This document shows positions 9,793 to 15,699 of a DNA stretch of 64,000 nucleotides, piece after piece. The stretch's first letter is position 1. Every line of letters begins with the position of its first letter. The translations under genes were made by a program, and so were the position numbers. Source of the DNA: a virus. Below the pieces are notes generated by a model. The model did not search any database and had not been told where the DNA came from. It saw nothing but the letters and a program-made list of their open reading frames with translations. The stretch covers positions 186,001-250,000 of the IMG/VR virus record IMGVR_UViG_3300020477_000990; one strand, given 5' to 3'.

Positions 9793-10924
9793 TAATTTAG
9801 CATATAAATTTGAAAGTCCTGGAAGATATGCTACTCATGTAAATTATCTTAATGGACATAATAGTTATGATATTATAGAATTTAATTCTTATTTAGATAA
9901 GCCATATCATCTTAATGATAGTTTTAAATTTGTTAATTTAACTAAATTAAAAAATCCAAATACCAGAGTATTAATAAGTCATATAAGAGAACGTTTAAAT
10001 TCTGATAGTAGTATATTACGAGGCCAGGCAGTTTTTATTGATTGGTTAGTGCAAAGCGAAGTATGTAAGGCAGAGCAAATTTTATATATTGTTGGATGTC
10101 AAACTGAACAAGATTTTTTACAAGAGTATACACAGGCTTGTTTAAAAGAACATACATTCCAACATAAAATAAAAATATTATCATATCCTCATTTTGAAAC
10201 TGATGCTGTTTGGCGTATGTATCAAGAAGGATTATCTATTGCAAATAGAAATTATGATGAACTAAAAACATTTGTTAAAAAAGATTTTTTATTTTTAAAT
10301 GCAAAAATACATAAAGCTAATAGAATTAATTTAGCAGTTGATTTGTTTCAACGTGGAATTTTAGATAATGGAATTTACTCTTTAAATACAAGTCATACAA
10401 GTACTGAACTTTATCCTTTAGTACAACACTTAATAGATCAATATTCATTTGGTCATTTTTATAGTAATATCCCACATAGTCCAGATAATATTGAGTACGA
10501 TAGTGAGTCGGACCATTATTTAGGTTATCCTTTTGATTATACTTTATATGAAAAAACAAAATATAGTTTAGTCGCAGAAACTCATTATGAAAATAATCCT
10601 TTTTTATTAACAGAAAAAACAGCAAGACCTATTTTAAATAAGCACCCTTTTGTTATAGCCAGTACGGTTGGTTTTTTAAAACAATTACATGAATTTGGAT
10701 ATCATACTTTTAATGAACTATGGCCAGAAGAATATGATTTAGAAACTGATACAACAAAACGTTTAAGCCTTGTTGCAGATACAGTTGAATACATAAACAA
10801 TAATACTGTTGATTGGATTTACGCATATCAAATCTCTAAGGAGAATTATACAACCCTGCAGAGGAGATATGATAGAAGTGTTAGACTATTAACAGAATGC
10901 CTTAGCGGTTCTTTTCGGATTTAG
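9767..10924 (+). CDS. conserved phage protein with glycosyltransferase-like C-terminus
   Basis: 385 residues, function not known to me. The C-terminal third (SLVAETHYENNPFLLTEKTA, then HPFVIASTVGFLKQL and FGYHTFNELW) resembles a block recurring in marine phage proteins and in exostosin-like glycosyltransferases, where a Glu-Lys pair contacts the sugar nucleotide. No DxD motif was found. It starts inside gp46 (26-nt overlap), so it is cotranscribed with gp55-47-46, and it is followed by the non-coding block. Confidence 0.75.
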   Translation: MSTIQLAPNNLAYKFESPGRYATHVNYLNGHNSYDIIEFNSYLDKPYHLNDSFKFVNLTKLKNPNTRVLISHIRERLNSDSSILRGQAVFIDWLVQSEVCKAEQILYIVGCQTEQDFLQEYTQACLKEHTFQHKIKILSYPHFETDAVWRMYQEGLSIANRNYDELKTFVKKDFLFLNAKIHKANRINLAVDLFQRGILDNGIYSLNTSHTSTELYPLVQHLIDQYSFGHFYSNIPHSPDNIEYDSESDHYLGYPFDYTLYEKTKYSLVAETHYENNPFLLTEKTARPILNKHPFVIASTVGFLKQLHEFGYHTFNELWPEEYDLETDTTKRLSLVADTVEYINNNTVDWIYAYQISKENYTTLQRRYDRSVRLLTECLSGSFRI

Positions 10925-10942
10925 TTACCATTACCTAAGAGA

Positions 10943-11315
10943 TAAAATCATTTTGATTAATGATTGTATTGCATCATACAGAACCAGTCATAACTCACCC
11001 TGTTACGGGATGAGTCATTTTCGGCATCATACGAGACCACGCCATTCTAACTTTACAATCCTAAGGAAGCGGTTGGCCGGTACTCCCATCAATTGCGTCT
11101 CATCCAACGGAACTAAAATGTGTAAAGTAAGTTAGCACTACACACCTAGCTGAAGTTGTATCTTTTTCACAGAGCTTCATCGTTTAGCAGATATTAGCCT
11201 TTAGTCGCAACATCAGATTCACCATCATGAAGACGCATTTCTGAGATATTTCTATCAAGTAAGGTTGCTATGTAAGTTGATATTAGTTGATATTAGCCTT
11301 TATTAGCCTTATTGT
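10943..11315 (-). ncRNA. candidate structured non-coding RNA
   Basis: This 480-nt interval (10925-11408) holds no credible gene. Its middle (about 10990-11110) is clearly GC-richer than the AT-rich genes around it. A minus-strand promoter (11351-11322) points into it. The predicted RNA starts near 11315 with tandem 10-nt repeats (AAGGCTAATA twice, then TCAACTAATA). Possible helices: TGCGTCT at 11239-11233 with AGACGCA at 11100-11094; a TGAAG/CTTCA stem; and a hairpin at 10993-11015 (ACTCACCC, loop TGTTAC, GGGATGAGT with one bulge). A weak AU hairpin at 10946-10965 followed by TTATC could end it. No tRNA-like end, tmRNA tag or RNase P core is recognisable. Confidence 0.55.
11271..11310 (-). 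repeat. 10-bp tandem repeats, AGGCTAATA type
   Basis: Four consecutive 10-mers read on the minus strand: AAGGCTAATA (11310-11301), AAGGCTAATA (11300-11291), TCAACTAATA (11290-11281), TCAACTTACA (11280-11271). A further AGGCTAATAT occurs at 11200-11191. They lie at the very 5' end of the predicted RNA. The same motif, also in a 10-bp register, is found in the gp32 leader (46937-46986). Confidence 0.8.
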
Positions 11316-11321
11316 TATTAA

Positions 11322-11351
11322 AGTATAAGATTAAATTGGGTGTTTTGTCAA
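11322..11351 (-). promoter_or_regulatory. sigma70-like promoter of the candidate ncRNA
   Basis: Minus-strand TTGACA (11351-11346), 18-nt spacer, TATACT (11327-11322). It is divergent from the promoter at 11370-11398 and predicts an RNA start near 11315. Confidence 0.6.
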
Positions 11352-11369
11352 GAGGAAAATTAAAAAATA

Positions 11370-11398
11370 TTGACTAATTGTGAAAATAGTTGTATAGT
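11370..11398 (+). promoter_or_regulatory. sigma70-like promoter of the 98-residue gene and nuclease
   Basis: TTGACT 11370-11375, 17-nt spacer, TATAGT 11393-11398. The ATG at 11409 is only 10 nt after the -10 box, so the mRNA leader is about 4 nt and holds no ribosome site. Confidence 0.7.
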
Positions 11399-11408
11399 AT
11401 TATTATAA

Positions 11409-11705
11409 ATGACGAAAGATACAGTAATATCTAACATATATGGTGAAGATGAAAATGGGAATCCTATATTCATAGATAGGATTTATGGAGATAAAAATAC
11501 ACAAAGACTTATACAAAAAGATGGGTCTGAATATAAAGGTAGTATAACTAAACGTAGAATTATAGTAAAAAGAAGTAATGGAGATAGTTTTACATCACAC
11601 GTACATGAAACAGCAGACGGAAGATGGTTTGATAGAGGTGGTATGCCAATTGATAAACCAAAGAATTTAGATACTAGAAAAAAAGAAGAGGAAACACAAG
11701 AGTGA
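11409..11705 (+). CDS. small protein of unknown function
   Basis: 98 residues, not recognised. Beta-strand-rich and charged, with a Lys/Glu-rich C-terminal tail. It follows a sigma70-like promoter with almost no leader and overlaps the nuclease gene by 4 nt, so it is likely coexpressed early with a DNA-processing enzyme. Confidence 0.7.
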   Translation: MTKDTVISNIYGEDENGNPIFIDRIYGDKNTQRLIQKDGSEYKGSITKRRIIVKRSNGDSFTSHVHETADGRWFDRGGMPIDKPKNLDTRKKEEETQE

Positions 11706-12220
11706 GTGGAGCAAAATCTAAAAATAAAGGTAAAATATACGAAAGAGATGTAGCAAATTTTCTTTCTGAATTATACAAAGAACCTTTTACAAGGGTTCCA
11801 TATTCAGGTGCATTTATTGGTGGACAAAATATTAAAAGAATAGATAGTTTATCTGAAAATCAAACTAGAGGTTTTAAAGGTGATATTATACCACCTGATA
11901 CATTTCCATTGTTAGTTATTGAAGCAAAGAACTATGGAGAGTTTCAATGGCATAATTTAGCATTAGGTAAAGAAGTAAAACAGTTAGATGAATGGATCAA
12001 ACAAGCACAAGATTCTTGTGAAGATAAAGACAAATGGATATTAAGTGTTAAAATATCTAGGCAAGGTGAATTTGTTTTATGGGATCCAACTTTATGGAGT
12101 GATTTAGATACAGACAATATGTATAAGCAATTCTTTTATACTGAAGCTTCAAAGTTTTGGCAATTAAATAGTGATAAAGTTAAACAACAATCTAAACAAC
12201 TACTTGACCAGCCTTCTTAA
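11702..12220 (+). CDS. PD-(D/E)xK nuclease, Holliday-junction-resolvase-like
   Basis: 172 residues. The N-terminus GKIYERDVANFL with a downstream GDIIPP and LLVIEAKNY gives the E, D, E-x-K pattern of Hjc-type resolvases and related nucleases (catalytic Asp of GDI and Glu/Lys of EAK). T4 endonuclease VII (gp49) is not seen in this window, so this protein could resolve recombination and packaging junctions; that is inference. The GTG start overlaps the previous stop. The 3' end overlaps the convergent gp51 reading frame by 29 nt. Confidence 0.75.
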   Translation: MSGAKSKNKGKIYERDVANFLSELYKEPFTRVPYSGAFIGGQNIKRIDSLSENQTRGFKGDIIPPDTFPLLVIEAKNYGEFQWHNLALGKEVKQLDEWIKQAQDSCEDKDKWILSVKISRQGEFVLWDPTLWSDLDTDNMYKQFFYTEASKFWQLNSDKVKQQSKQLLDQPS

Positions 12221-12428
12221 ATCGTTCTGCATTTTCACCAACATACTTAATCATCTCATTACGGTCCACATCGGAAAGTGACCATGCTTCTTCCCAAGTA
12301 ATTGATCCTCGCATATACCAACAAATTTCTGTTATTTGTTTTTGTATTGCAGAACGTTCTTTAGCTAACTGATCAAAGTAGGCATTTATTTCTTGAGGCT
12401 CAGCCCTTAAGAGCCAGCTACGAAAAAA
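12192..12428 (-). CDS. 51: gp51-like extension made by -1 frameshift from gp26
   Basis: An open frame of 78 codons in the -1 frame relative to gp26, running past the gp26 stop. Translation includes NAYFDQLAKERSAIQKQITE, then ICWYMRGSITWEEAW, a block I associate with marine T4-like gp51 (baseplate hub assembly factor). The frame has no ATG, GTG or TTG before codon 39, which lies inside the conserved block, so it has no usable start of its own. A slippery T_TTT_TTC where the frames meet explains how it is translated. The gp26-gp51 product would be 358 residues. It ends in TAG at 12194-12192, inside the 3' end of the convergent nuclease gene. Confidence 0.75.
   Translation of the reverse strand, partial: FFRSWLLRAEPQEINAYFDQLAKERSAIQKQITEICWYMRGSITWEEAWSLSDVDRNEMIKYVGENAERFKKAGQVVV
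12397..12428 (-). promoter_or_regulatory. programmed -1 frameshift signal in gp26
   Basis: In the gp26 frame the codons read gaT TTT TTC, a canonical X_XXY_YYZ heptamer (12428-12422). After a 6-nt spacer comes a GC-rich stem GGCTC/GAGCC (12415-12411 with 12401-12397) whose loop holds the gp26 stop codon. Spacing and order are those of stimulated bacterial -1 frameshifts. Confidence 0.75.
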
Positions 12429-13267
12429 TCAGTTGGATTAATGTCTAACGTAGTTTCCCACTCATGTTTACATTTTTCATTTTGACAAATTAACGATATT
12501 TTTTTGTCAACGTCTAATGCATTAATTTCTGCTAATTTACTGTCAATTGCCTTAGCGGCAGTTGAATCTATATTTTGTAAAAATGCAAAAATTTCATTTG
12601 CGTGAGTTTCTTCGTCACCATCTGGTGTTACTACTTTAACAATACTTCTAGCAAGTAGTGATACACTAATGTCAGCCATTTTATTAAAACTTTTATTATA
12701 CACAGACATAGCGTCAGCACTAATGTCAGCAGTTTCTTTTGTCAATTGCTGTATTGCTTTTGTTTCATCAAAAGCCGCAAGTGCCGCCTCTGTTTGCATT
12801 GTGTAAGTATAAGGTTTAATATAAACTTTAATGCCAGTCTCTAATGTTACAACGTATTCAGTTTCTAACATTTTAGCAGTAGCTAACAAGTTACGCATAT
12901 TAACAGTAACTCTGTTGTCAGTTTTACAGCTAGGACATTTAGCAGTAACTTCGTGTTCATCTCCACTAGATGCAATTTTAATTGCAATTAAAAGAGTATC
13001 AATATCTGTTATTGGAATGTTTTTAGGTTCGCCAACTCCAGGAACACAACTTTTAATAACACTAGTAATAGCTTCGCCATTTAATAATGCATCTGGGTTT
13101 TTAGTTAATACTTCATCACGACCTGTCATAGCCATAACAGCTAATTCACCACTCATTGATTGTTCCATCTCTGGATTAAAAGCACCTTGACTTGGTATTT
13201 TTACATACAGTTTTGGAGCTCTATAATACTTCGATAGTTTGCTTTCGGTTTTAGTTTCTGTTGCCAT
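12407..13267 (-). CDS. 26: gp26-like baseplate hub / tail chaperone protein
   Basis: 286 residues. Four cysteines in two pairs (C111-C114 and C261-C266) should form one zinc site. The N-terminal PKLYVKIPSQG and AMTGRDEVLTKNPDALLNGE are the typical gp26-family opening. T4 gp26 is a baseplate hub assembly protein. The frameshift into gp51 and the divergent tape measure gene at 13363 suggest it acts as the G/GT-type chaperone of tape measure and tube; that role is inference. Several minus-strand late boxes lie at 13313-13346. Confidence 0.85.
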   Translation of the reverse strand: MATETKTESKLSKYYRAPKLYVKIPSQGAFNPEMEQSMSGELAVMAMTGRDEVLTKNPDALLNGEAITSVIKSCVPGVGEPKNIPITDIDTLLIAIKIASSGDEHEVTAKCPSCKTDNRVTVNMRNLLATAKMLETEYVVTLETGIKVYIKPYTYTMQTEAALAAFDETKAIQQLTKETADISADAMSVYNKSFNKMADISVSLLARSIVKVVTPDGDEETHANEIFAFLQNIDSTAAKAIDSKLAEINALDVDKKISLICQNEKCKHEWETTLDINPTDFFVAGS

Positions 13268-13362: not shown

Positions 13363-15699
13363 ATGGCAGATGGCGATAGAATTATAGTTGATAAGATAAA
13401 TTGGAGTCCAGATCTTCCGGAATGGGCTACAGAAGCCACTCAAGCTAAAATTTTAGAAAAATTAGGTGGCCAATTAGATATTGTTAAAAAGACAGCAACT
13501 AAAACTACAACTAATTTAAAAGATAATACTAAAGCCCAAAAAGATACAACAACAATGCTTGAAAAAGGCTTTAAGTCGATGAAAGAAGCGGCTAGAAACC
13601 AAACGTCAGCCTTTAATAAATTTTCAGCACAAAAGCTAATACCCAAAACACCATTTAAAGCATTTAATAATGGAATTCAAAAAGTTGCAGGTAAATTAGG
13701 AATATTTGGTGCGGCACTAGGTGCAGTTGGATTTGTTATTGGTGGAATTATTGGTAGAATGAAAGCCTTTAGTGATCAATTTAGACAATTGTTTGCCGTA
13801 GGTTTCAGATTTGAAAAAGGTTCAATAGGTTTAGCACAGGCGGCTGTTAGAGCTGAAATGAGTTTAGATCAGTATAGTGAAATTTTAGGAAGATATTCAA
13901 CTACAATAGGAGTACTTGGTACAAGAGCATTTTCAGATTTAAATGTACAGATGAGGGAAACATTAATGGAAGTTGGATTACTTGGTATGAACTTATCTGA
14001 GTTAACTGAGTATACAGCTGATTATTTAGATCAAAGAAGATTGCTTGGTATATTAGAAGAAACAGATAGAGCGGCGTTGGCACAACAAACAGAAACATAT
14101 TTAAAAAATATTTCTGCAATGTCTACTTTACTGAATGTATCTAGAGACCAAATATCACAAATAGTTAAATCATCTGTAACAGTAGCGGCATTTACAAATG
14201 CATTAAACAAAGCACCACAAGAGTTACGAGAGCAGATGTTAGCTACAGCACAGGTAGTTACTGCCGGTTTTGCGGCATTAGGTAATGATTATGGTAATGC
14301 TTTAGCAAATGCATTTACAACAGCAGTTGGACGAGGTGGGTTATACTTCACAGAAGTAGGTAGAGAACTATTAGCAATAAGTCAACCATTGTATCATGCA
14401 ATGTCTGAATTAGCCAACACAGTTGGTCCACAAGAAGCTGGTGCTAAATTTAGTGCAATGTTAGATATAATGGCAAATGTATCTGATGCAGAACGTCAAC
14501 GTTTAATGATTTTAGAACGTTCTAATACTCAATATGCACAAGGTGCCAGAAATATGATTACATTAATTAATCAAGCACAACAATTAGAAGAAGAGCAAAT
14601 TGCGGCAATTAGAAACATGGAAAAAATGAGAGAGGCTCAAAGACCAGATGATACTACAAGAGCATTTACAAATTTAGAAATTGCAATGCAAAAATTAAGA
14701 GTTGTTTATGATAAGTTTTTTACAACATTATTTGGTAACAATAGAATATTAAATCTATTTGAAAGAATTATGATTAAGTTATCTAAAGCAGTAGTTAAGT
14801 TTGCTGATTGGATTTTAGAAAGAGCAGAAAAAATTGGTGATGCTATTGCTAATGTAGTTACAAGATTAATGGATTGGATTAAAGGTTTTGAAGGAATGGG
14901 ACTAGGAGCGTCAATTGCCAGAGCATTAAGCGGTGTGTTTGGATTAATGTCAGATATGATTGTTGGTGCAATTGTTAAAGGAATGAAAATGGCTCTACCA
15001 GGTGGTGGAGCGGCAAAAAGAGCTGAAAGTCAAAGACAAATAGCAAATCAAGATATTCAAAGATTATCAGGTGGTGGCTTAAATATAGATCCTAATAATA
15101 CAACATTTAATAAAGAATGGTTAAAGAGATGGTCCGGACCTAACGCAACAAGATTTGATTTTGATAACGATATAGTATCAGGAATTGCTAACGAATTACC
15201 ACCTACTCTTGCTAAAACGTTTGCATCAATGTTTCCAGATGGTGACGTAGATACGTCAGCAATAGAAACAATGCAATCTAGAGAAGGTGTTTTTGCAACA
15301 ATACTTGAAGAAGTAACTAAAAGTGGAAATAAAGATTTAATTGAAGCATTAAATAAATTATTACTTTCTCAAGCAGTTCTAGTAAGTAATACTGCAAAAG
15401 CAACACTAGATGACGAACTAGGTGTTAAAACAACTACTATGTCTGGTACTGACATTGCTAATAATTTAGCTGGCAAACAAGATGATAATGCAGTATTAAC
15501 TGGTACAAAAACACCAGCTGAAATTACTGAAGCTAAATTAAAAATAATGAGACAATATTTGCCAATGGCCGGAAAAGGTGATCCAAATCAGGACGCAACT
15601 GGTAATTATTATGAACAAATGATTGCTGAATTAAAGATTTTAAACGGTAAACAGGAAAAACAAATAAAAGAATTAGAGTCAGCAAACGCCAAATTATAA
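13363..15699 (+). CDS. 29: gp29-like tape measure / baseplate hub protein
   Basis: 778 residues. It sets tail length and seeds tube assembly. It opens with IDKINW-type sequence and DLPEWATEATQ as in marine gp29 proteins. There is a hydrophobic Gly-rich segment near 110-130 (GIFGAALGAVGFVIGGIIG) like the membrane-active stretch of tape measures. Long helical parts span about 150-480 and amphipathic helices about 440-560. Directly divergent from the gp26/gp51 chaperone pair, the usual tape-measure neighbourhood. It is longer than T4 gp29 (590), predicting a longer tail if helical length scales. Confidence 0.8.
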   Translation: MADGDRIIVDKINWSPDLPEWATEATQAKILEKLGGQLDIVKKTATKTTTNLKDNTKAQKDTTTMLEKGFKSMKEAARNQTSAFNKFSAQKLIPKTPFKAFNNGIQKVAGKLGIFGAALGAVGFVIGGIIGRMKAFSDQFRQLFAVGFRFEKGSIGLAQAAVRAEMSLDQYSEILGRYSTTIGVLGTRAFSDLNVQMRETLMEVGLLGMNLSELTEYTADYLDQRRLLGILEETDRAALAQQTETYLKNISAMSTLLNVSRDQISQIVKSSVTVAAFTNALNKAPQELREQMLATAQVVTAGFAALGNDYGNALANAFTTAVGRGGLYFTEVGRELLAISQPLYHAMSELANTVGPQEAGAKFSAMLDIMANVSDAERQRLMILERSNTQYAQGARNMITLINQAQQLEEEQIAAIRNMEKMREAQRPDDTTRAFTNLEIAMQKLRVVYDKFFTTLFGNNRILNLFERIMIKLSKAVVKFADWILERAEKIGDAIANVVTRLMDWIKGFEGMGLGASIARALSGVFGLMSDMIVGAIVKGMKMALPGGGAAKRAESQRQIANQDIQRLSGGGLNIDPNNTTFNKEWLKRWSGPNATRFDFDNDIVSGIANELPPTLAKTFASMFPDGDVDTSAIETMQSREGVFATILEEVTKSGNKDLIEALNKLLLSQAVLVSNTAKATLDDELGVKTTTMSGTDIANNLAGKQDDNAVLTGTKTPAEITEAKLKIMRQYLPMAGKGDPNQDATGNYYEQMIAELKILNGKQEKQIKELESANAKL

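Follow-up and report, generated by a model that had tools for sequence, protein, structure and literature searches.

By what means could a reading frame that resembles the C-terminal part of T4 gp51, but has no start codon ahead of its conserved core, be translated? This question is raised by the window analyzed here, a 64,000-nucleotide stretch (positions 186,001-250,000) of the IMG/VR virus record IMGVR_UViG_3300020477_000990, which is 328,149 bp long and derives from a T4-like jumbo virus. In this window, a gp26-like gene on the minus strand carries a T_TTT_TTC heptamer near its end, from which the -1 frame continues into an open extension. The gene and its -1 frame very probably encode the short and long forms of a chaperone, the latter produced through a programmed -1 frameshift, as indicated by sequence comparison with relatives. 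Such a frameshift, like that of lambda G/GT, had been proposed in an earlier note on this DNA, and is supported by the invariance of the heptamer and overlap, purifying selection on the -1 frame, synonymous constraint at the junction, and loss of the heptamer in phages with separate genes.

The gp26-like gene and its -1 extension

The gp26-like protein matched both PF12322 (T4_baseplate, E 1.1e-19) and phrog_150 (baseplate hub, E 2.7e-24), the family to which the short form of a gp26/gp51-type chaperone should belong, and aligned with the gp26 proteins of jumbo phages at 27-41% identity. Its predicted fold matched viral baseplate proteins (best E 1.9e-17), the model being only moderate, with a mean predicted local distance difference test score (pLDDT) of 70 and residues 17-62 poor. 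A sequence search of solved structures returned nothing for T4 gp51 or the window gp26. The open reading frame (ORF) ends in NPTD-FF-VAGS, and the Phe pair encoded by the heptamer starts the last six codons (FFVAGS) ahead of the stop.

The TGA that abuts the heptamer shuts the -1 frame on its 5' side, so that a shift is possible only at the heptamer or within the few codons before the gp26 stop. From the heptamer the -1 frame stays open to the stop at 12192, and its earliest ATG, GTG or TTG is codon 39 counted from the heptamer, within the conserved WYMRG motif. The open frame without a start before its conserved core, as well as the 358-residue length of the predicted fusion (282 + 76), are as the earlier note described them. 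The extension was matched to the C-terminus of T4/cyanophage gp51 by profile comparison (E 4.5e-5, probability 69%, 34 columns), a modest match that is backed by identical position and layout. The frame previously called gp51-like corresponds to the C-terminal part of T4 gp51, and not to gp51 as a whole. A heptamer near the end of TAC-N (TAC, tail-assembly chaperone) with the -1 frame open through it, together with an extension that lacks its own start and is under selection at the protein level, characterize a frameshifted TAC, and both are found in the window.

Table 1. Coordinates of the features at the putative chaperone locus, numbered within the window
Feature	Position	Strand	Remarks
gp26-like gene, putative short chaperone form (TAC-N)	12407..13267	-	286 residues; two CxxC zinc-ribbon-like motifs; PF12322, phrog_150
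TGA closing the -1 frame	12429..12431	-	abuts the heptamer on its 5' side
Slippery heptamer T_TTT_TTC	12422..12428	-	read T|TTT|TTC in the gp26 frame; near the gp26 end, local sequence GAT TTT TTC
-1 extension (TAC-C, equivalent to the C-terminal part of T4 gp51)	12192..12421	-	76 codons and stop
Possible stimulatory stem	12397..12415	-	GGCTC 12415-12411 / GAGCC 12401-12397; 9-nucleotide loop; starts 6 nucleotides after the heptamer
Divergent gene, tape measure candidate by position and size only	13363..15699	+	778 residues

Conservation of the slippery heptamer

Alignment of the junctions in relatives, which had been suggested as a check, showed the gp26 end to carry T_TTT_TTC or T_TTT_TTT in 15/15 named phages with the overlapping layout (Phosso, Atu_ph07, SCTP-2, RAS14, PA5oct, 121Q, P-SSM2, S-PM2, HTVC008M, Cr30, phiM12, KVP40, phiW-14, RaK2 and Aeh1), each having a -1 frame that continues as an open extension 59-82 codons long. 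The heptamer and -1 overlap are likewise present in the window's own IMG/VR clade. Furthermore, T_TTT_TTC was found in all 78 distinct cyanophage-like IMG/VR loci, while the 45 distinct Pelagibacter-phage-like loci carried T_TTT_TTT (43) or T_TTT_TTC (2). Ten further loci were unmatched by the sequence pattern used; six were inspected by eye and the heptamer was present in all six. No exception was seen among the roughly 150 loci examined in phages with the overlapping layout. The closest isolates at this locus are the jumbo phages Phosso, Atu_ph07 and SCTP-2, and not the smaller marine T4-like phages that the earlier note had named as relatives. An IMG/VR search with the Phosso extension returned zero relatives, and a search with RaK2 gp26 returned only RaK2 itself.

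The heptamer by itself is unremarkable, being not rare: T_TTT_TTY occurs at 9/58 Phe-Phe pairs elsewhere in these loci, and at 4/19 in the window. That the site exceeds chance follows from its invariance in overlapping relatives, its loss where the genes are separate, and the collapse of synonymous change at this point.

In loci of the Pelagibacter-phage type (L152-L231), the DNA right after the heptamer is near-identical (TAATATGCCTCTCTCATA), perhaps beyond what the peptide FFLICLSHI would need, which suggests constraint at the level of RNA.

Existing annotations treat the extension in different ways. Atu_ph07 gp687 (L002:3612-3734) and SCTP-2 gene 87 (L003:3540-3734) have annotated starts at an internal ATG, so that each covers a shortened form of the frameshift extension. 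In PA5oct, the extension region carries no annotated gene. In Aeh1 (NC_005260.1, ~118867-119016; L145, L151), reported as lacking gp51 (PMC3037559), the frameshift extension lies directly after gp26 and follows T_TTT_TTC. Cyanophage and marine vibriophage gp51 have been described as "shortened", without the first ~200 residues (PMC3037559), because the residues they seem to lack are supplied by gp26, in the other frame.

Selection across the junction

Selection was measured in the window and its close relatives over codons 9-38 of the -1 frame, a region that follows the gp26 stop and, in those sequences without an earlier start codon, ends before the first one. The ratio of nonsynonymous to synonymous substitution rates (dN/dS) was 0.16 in the -1 frame, whereas the two remaining frames gave 1.14 and 1.29, a pattern of substitution indicating that these codons are translated. 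Since the stretch is under protein selection and has no start codon, frameshifting is the simple way to reach it. In the relatives of Pelagibacter-phage type, too, conserved -1 peptide lies ahead of the earliest start codon, which is found at codon 11-21. Moreover, synonymous change declines about six-fold at the site: in the gp26 frame, differences amount to ~0.5-0.75 upstream but to only 0.095 at the heptamer. In the -1 frame they remain low as far as ~+45, beyond which they are back at 0.6. Low synonymous change is partly the result of dual coding, yet the constraint extends past the gp26 stop.

Phages with separate genes 26 and 51

A natural experiment is provided by phages in which two separate genes occur, where the slippery site has been lost, and by those without, where it has been kept. 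T4 has two phrog_150 genes, in agreement with the earlier note, in which 26 and 51 are separate genes: gp26 (208 residues) covers profile positions 14-235 and gp51 (249 residues) positions 13-280 of 282. Because gp51 spans nearly the full profile, it represents a paralogue of gp26 that already includes the extension, and by this comparison T4 gp26 and gp51 correspond to the short and long forms, encoded as separate genes. RB49, RB43, 44RR and Acj61 likewise have two genes, and the heptamer has been lost from gp26 in all five phages. The T4 site reads G_TTC_TTT and that of RB43 G_TTT_TTA, and the Phe-Phe pair itself is gone in RB49, Acj61 and 44RR. Aeh1 (T_TTT_TTC) and KVP40, which belong to the same family but overlap, retain the heptamer. 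Retention with overlap and loss with separate genes suggest that the Phe-Phe pair persists because of the slip and not because the protein needs it. For the earlier note, relatives whose gp51 starts at its own ATG and which lack the slippery site would have refuted frameshifting. That arrangement does occur in these five phages, but gp51 there contains the whole gp26 domain and so supports the frameshift idea.

Candidate stimulatory elements

In the window, as the earlier note had observed, the gp26 stop TAA (12409-12407) sits in the loop of the GGCTC/GAGCC stem that follows the heptamer. The stem is conserved in 8/9 members of the window clade, being absent in L055, and its sequence is invariant where present. 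The same stem occurs in SCTP-2, and long hairpins starting with the same GGCTC are found in Phosso (z ~ -3) and Atu_ph07 (z ~ -6). Since the bases of the stem also encode conserved peptide, its conservation is suggestive only. As proof of frameshifting at the window locus the stem was rejected as too weak. The cyanophage loci (L056-L135) display a different picture. A Shine-Dalgarno (SD)-like element lies no more than 20 nucleotides upstream of the heptamer in 74/78 (GGAGG in 36, GAGG in 38), with GGAGG always 10 nucleotides from the heptamer, and strong hairpins directly follow the site in S-PM2 (z -7.1) and P-SSM2 (z -5.2).

Evaluation of alternative explanations

Several observations weigh against a programmed frameshift in the window or lessen the force of the evidence for it. 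Given the 9/58 background, the presence of the heptamer in 18/18 lineages would have a chance probability of ~3e-15 if these were independent, a figure that overstates their independence as the lineages are related. The window stem is no better than dinucleotide shuffles (z = +0.03 to +0.86), and covariation was sought in it across the clade and none was found, the stem being invariant. The window site is also without the SD-like stimulator found in classic T4-like clades. A PDB fold search with the predicted window gp26 matched no solved structure. Finally, a start lies at codon 6 of the -1 frame in 59/78 cyanophage loci, where reinitiation may add to or replace frameshifting; in cyanophages with both the upstream SD-like motif and this start, the two processes may coexist.

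Reinitiation might be extended to the whole family, the downstream frame being a separate small gene (gp51) translated by coupling after the gp26 stop. In keeping with this, the cyanophage, KVP40, 121Q, Phosso and Atu_ph07 frames have an ATG only a few codons away from the heptamer, and separate genes are annotated in databases where an early ATG exists. However, no early ATG occurs in the window, SCTP-2, RaK2, PA5oct, RAS14, Aeh1, HTVC008M or L055, and the -1 peptide is under purifying selection ahead of any start codon. Reinitiation needs no heptamer, yet the heptamer is invariant, and T4 gp51 is a full fusion, which together make this explanation quite improbable. Fusion from transcripts edited by slippage of RNA polymerase on the T run, instead of by the ribosome, appears less probable still. 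The run is T6 in the window and T8 in HTVC008M-type loci, as such slippage would favor, but T6 is short for efficient polymerase slippage. Furthermore, in most clades a C closes the run, whose reading register is that of tandem slippage by tRNAs, and the internal SD-like GGAGG or GAGG upstream in classic clades acts on ribosomes. A single-base change, through assembly error or gene breakage, that split one long gp26-51 gene has a negligible chance of being correct. The continuous gp51 of T4 type lends it some plausibility, yet the same overlap at the same heptamer recurs in complete genomes of independent isolates and in well over 100 contigs from metagenomes, and the explanation is refuted by these relatives.

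Neighboring genes

The divergent 778-residue gene adjoins the portal gene, the same position as that of structural protein genes in PA5oct (detected by mass spectrometry) and 121Q, and it is plausible that it encodes the tape measure, by place and size. It has no Pfam or PHROG match and no significant match with T4 gp29, and a gp29 query of the genome found no tape measure. The divergent arrangement put forward earlier is present, while the identity of the neighbor as tape measure depends on position and size. On the other side, the end of a RusA-like/PDDEXK_15 endonuclease gene (window 11702-12220, plus strand) and that of the -1 extension share 12192-12220 in a tail-to-tail overlap. At 10950-11400 (plus strand), ~450 bases without a long ORF lie between two plus-strand genes, and a motif, GATATTAG, is repeated there near 11190-11310. 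A tRNA search of the window and an Rfam search of 10800-12700 both found nothing.

Proposed function and relation to known systems

With programmed frameshifting, most ribosomes would stop at 12407 and yield the 286-residue short form (TAC-N). A minority would slip back one base on T_TTT_TTC, with tRNA-Phe in both the P and A sites, bypass the gp26 stop and add 76 residues, giving the 358-residue long form (TAC-NC). By analogy with lambda G/GT and T4 gp26/gp51, the two forms are most likely tail-assembly chaperones for the tape measure: the short form would coat the tape-measure protein, the long form would recruit tube or hub subunits, both would leave the particle, and the ratio of short to long would matter. 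The lambda chaperone is absent from virions (PMC5009743), and the T4 proteins gp26 and gp51 are each listed among the chaperones of hub assembly, gp51 being missing from the finished particle (PMC3004832).

The window short form is homologous to T4 gp26 (TAC-N) through PF12322 and phrog_150, and the -1 extension matches the C-terminus of gp51 (TAC-NC). In contrast to the window, T4 has two genes and no frameshift; the window lineage is far from T4, and its extension has 76 residues vs about 60, without the SD-like element. The lambda slippery site differs from the window heptamer, and lambda gpG/gpGT belong to a phage without shown sequence similarity to the window proteins, whereas the window virus is contractile-tailed and T4-like. 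Lambda G/GT lies just upstream of the tape measure, while the window gene is divergent from its presumed one. In the TAC locus of Vandenendeviridae and Andersonviridae, a -1 frameshift at a poly-T motif at the TAC-N end was inferred by comparison, as in the window, but these are other phage families and the motif is GTTTTT (PMC12846349).

We lean slightly towards a history in which the T_TTT_TTC frameshift was ancestral to all T4-like and jumbo T4-like phages. Genes 26 and 51 of the T4 group would then reflect duplication of the locus, one copy becoming fused and the other losing its slippery site, and the stimulators would have been replaced, with an SD-like element and strong hairpin in cyanophage-type loci and no SD in the jumbo lineage.

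Vladimirov, Gautam and Davidson reportedly found in 2022 that frameshifting is conserved in several T4-like groups, with T4's group using genes 26 and 51. A passage of PMC10885494 cites their paper (Virology 2022, 566:9-15) for T4-like phages with one short and one fused gene, and a passage of PMC12846349 cites it for poly-T slippery sites in the TAC-N genes of T4-like phages; in a 2016 review T4 was still the exception to the conserved G-T frameshift (PMC5009743). In substance, frameshifting in T4-like chaperones has already been published (2022), and the window is a new, distant member. What is added here is the distant jumbo lineage, the selection test, the control from split genes and the contrast in stimulators, some of which may also be in the 2022 paper. 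The ancestral frameshift and the origin of T4 genes 26 and 51 by duplication are probably in that paper; what may be new is that this history takes in phages of 300-490 kb and that the stimulators changed. The finding identifies, in a jumbo virus and in several isolates of 300-490 kb, the likely tail-assembly chaperone, whose two pieces are mostly annotated as hypothetical or baseplate hub proteins.
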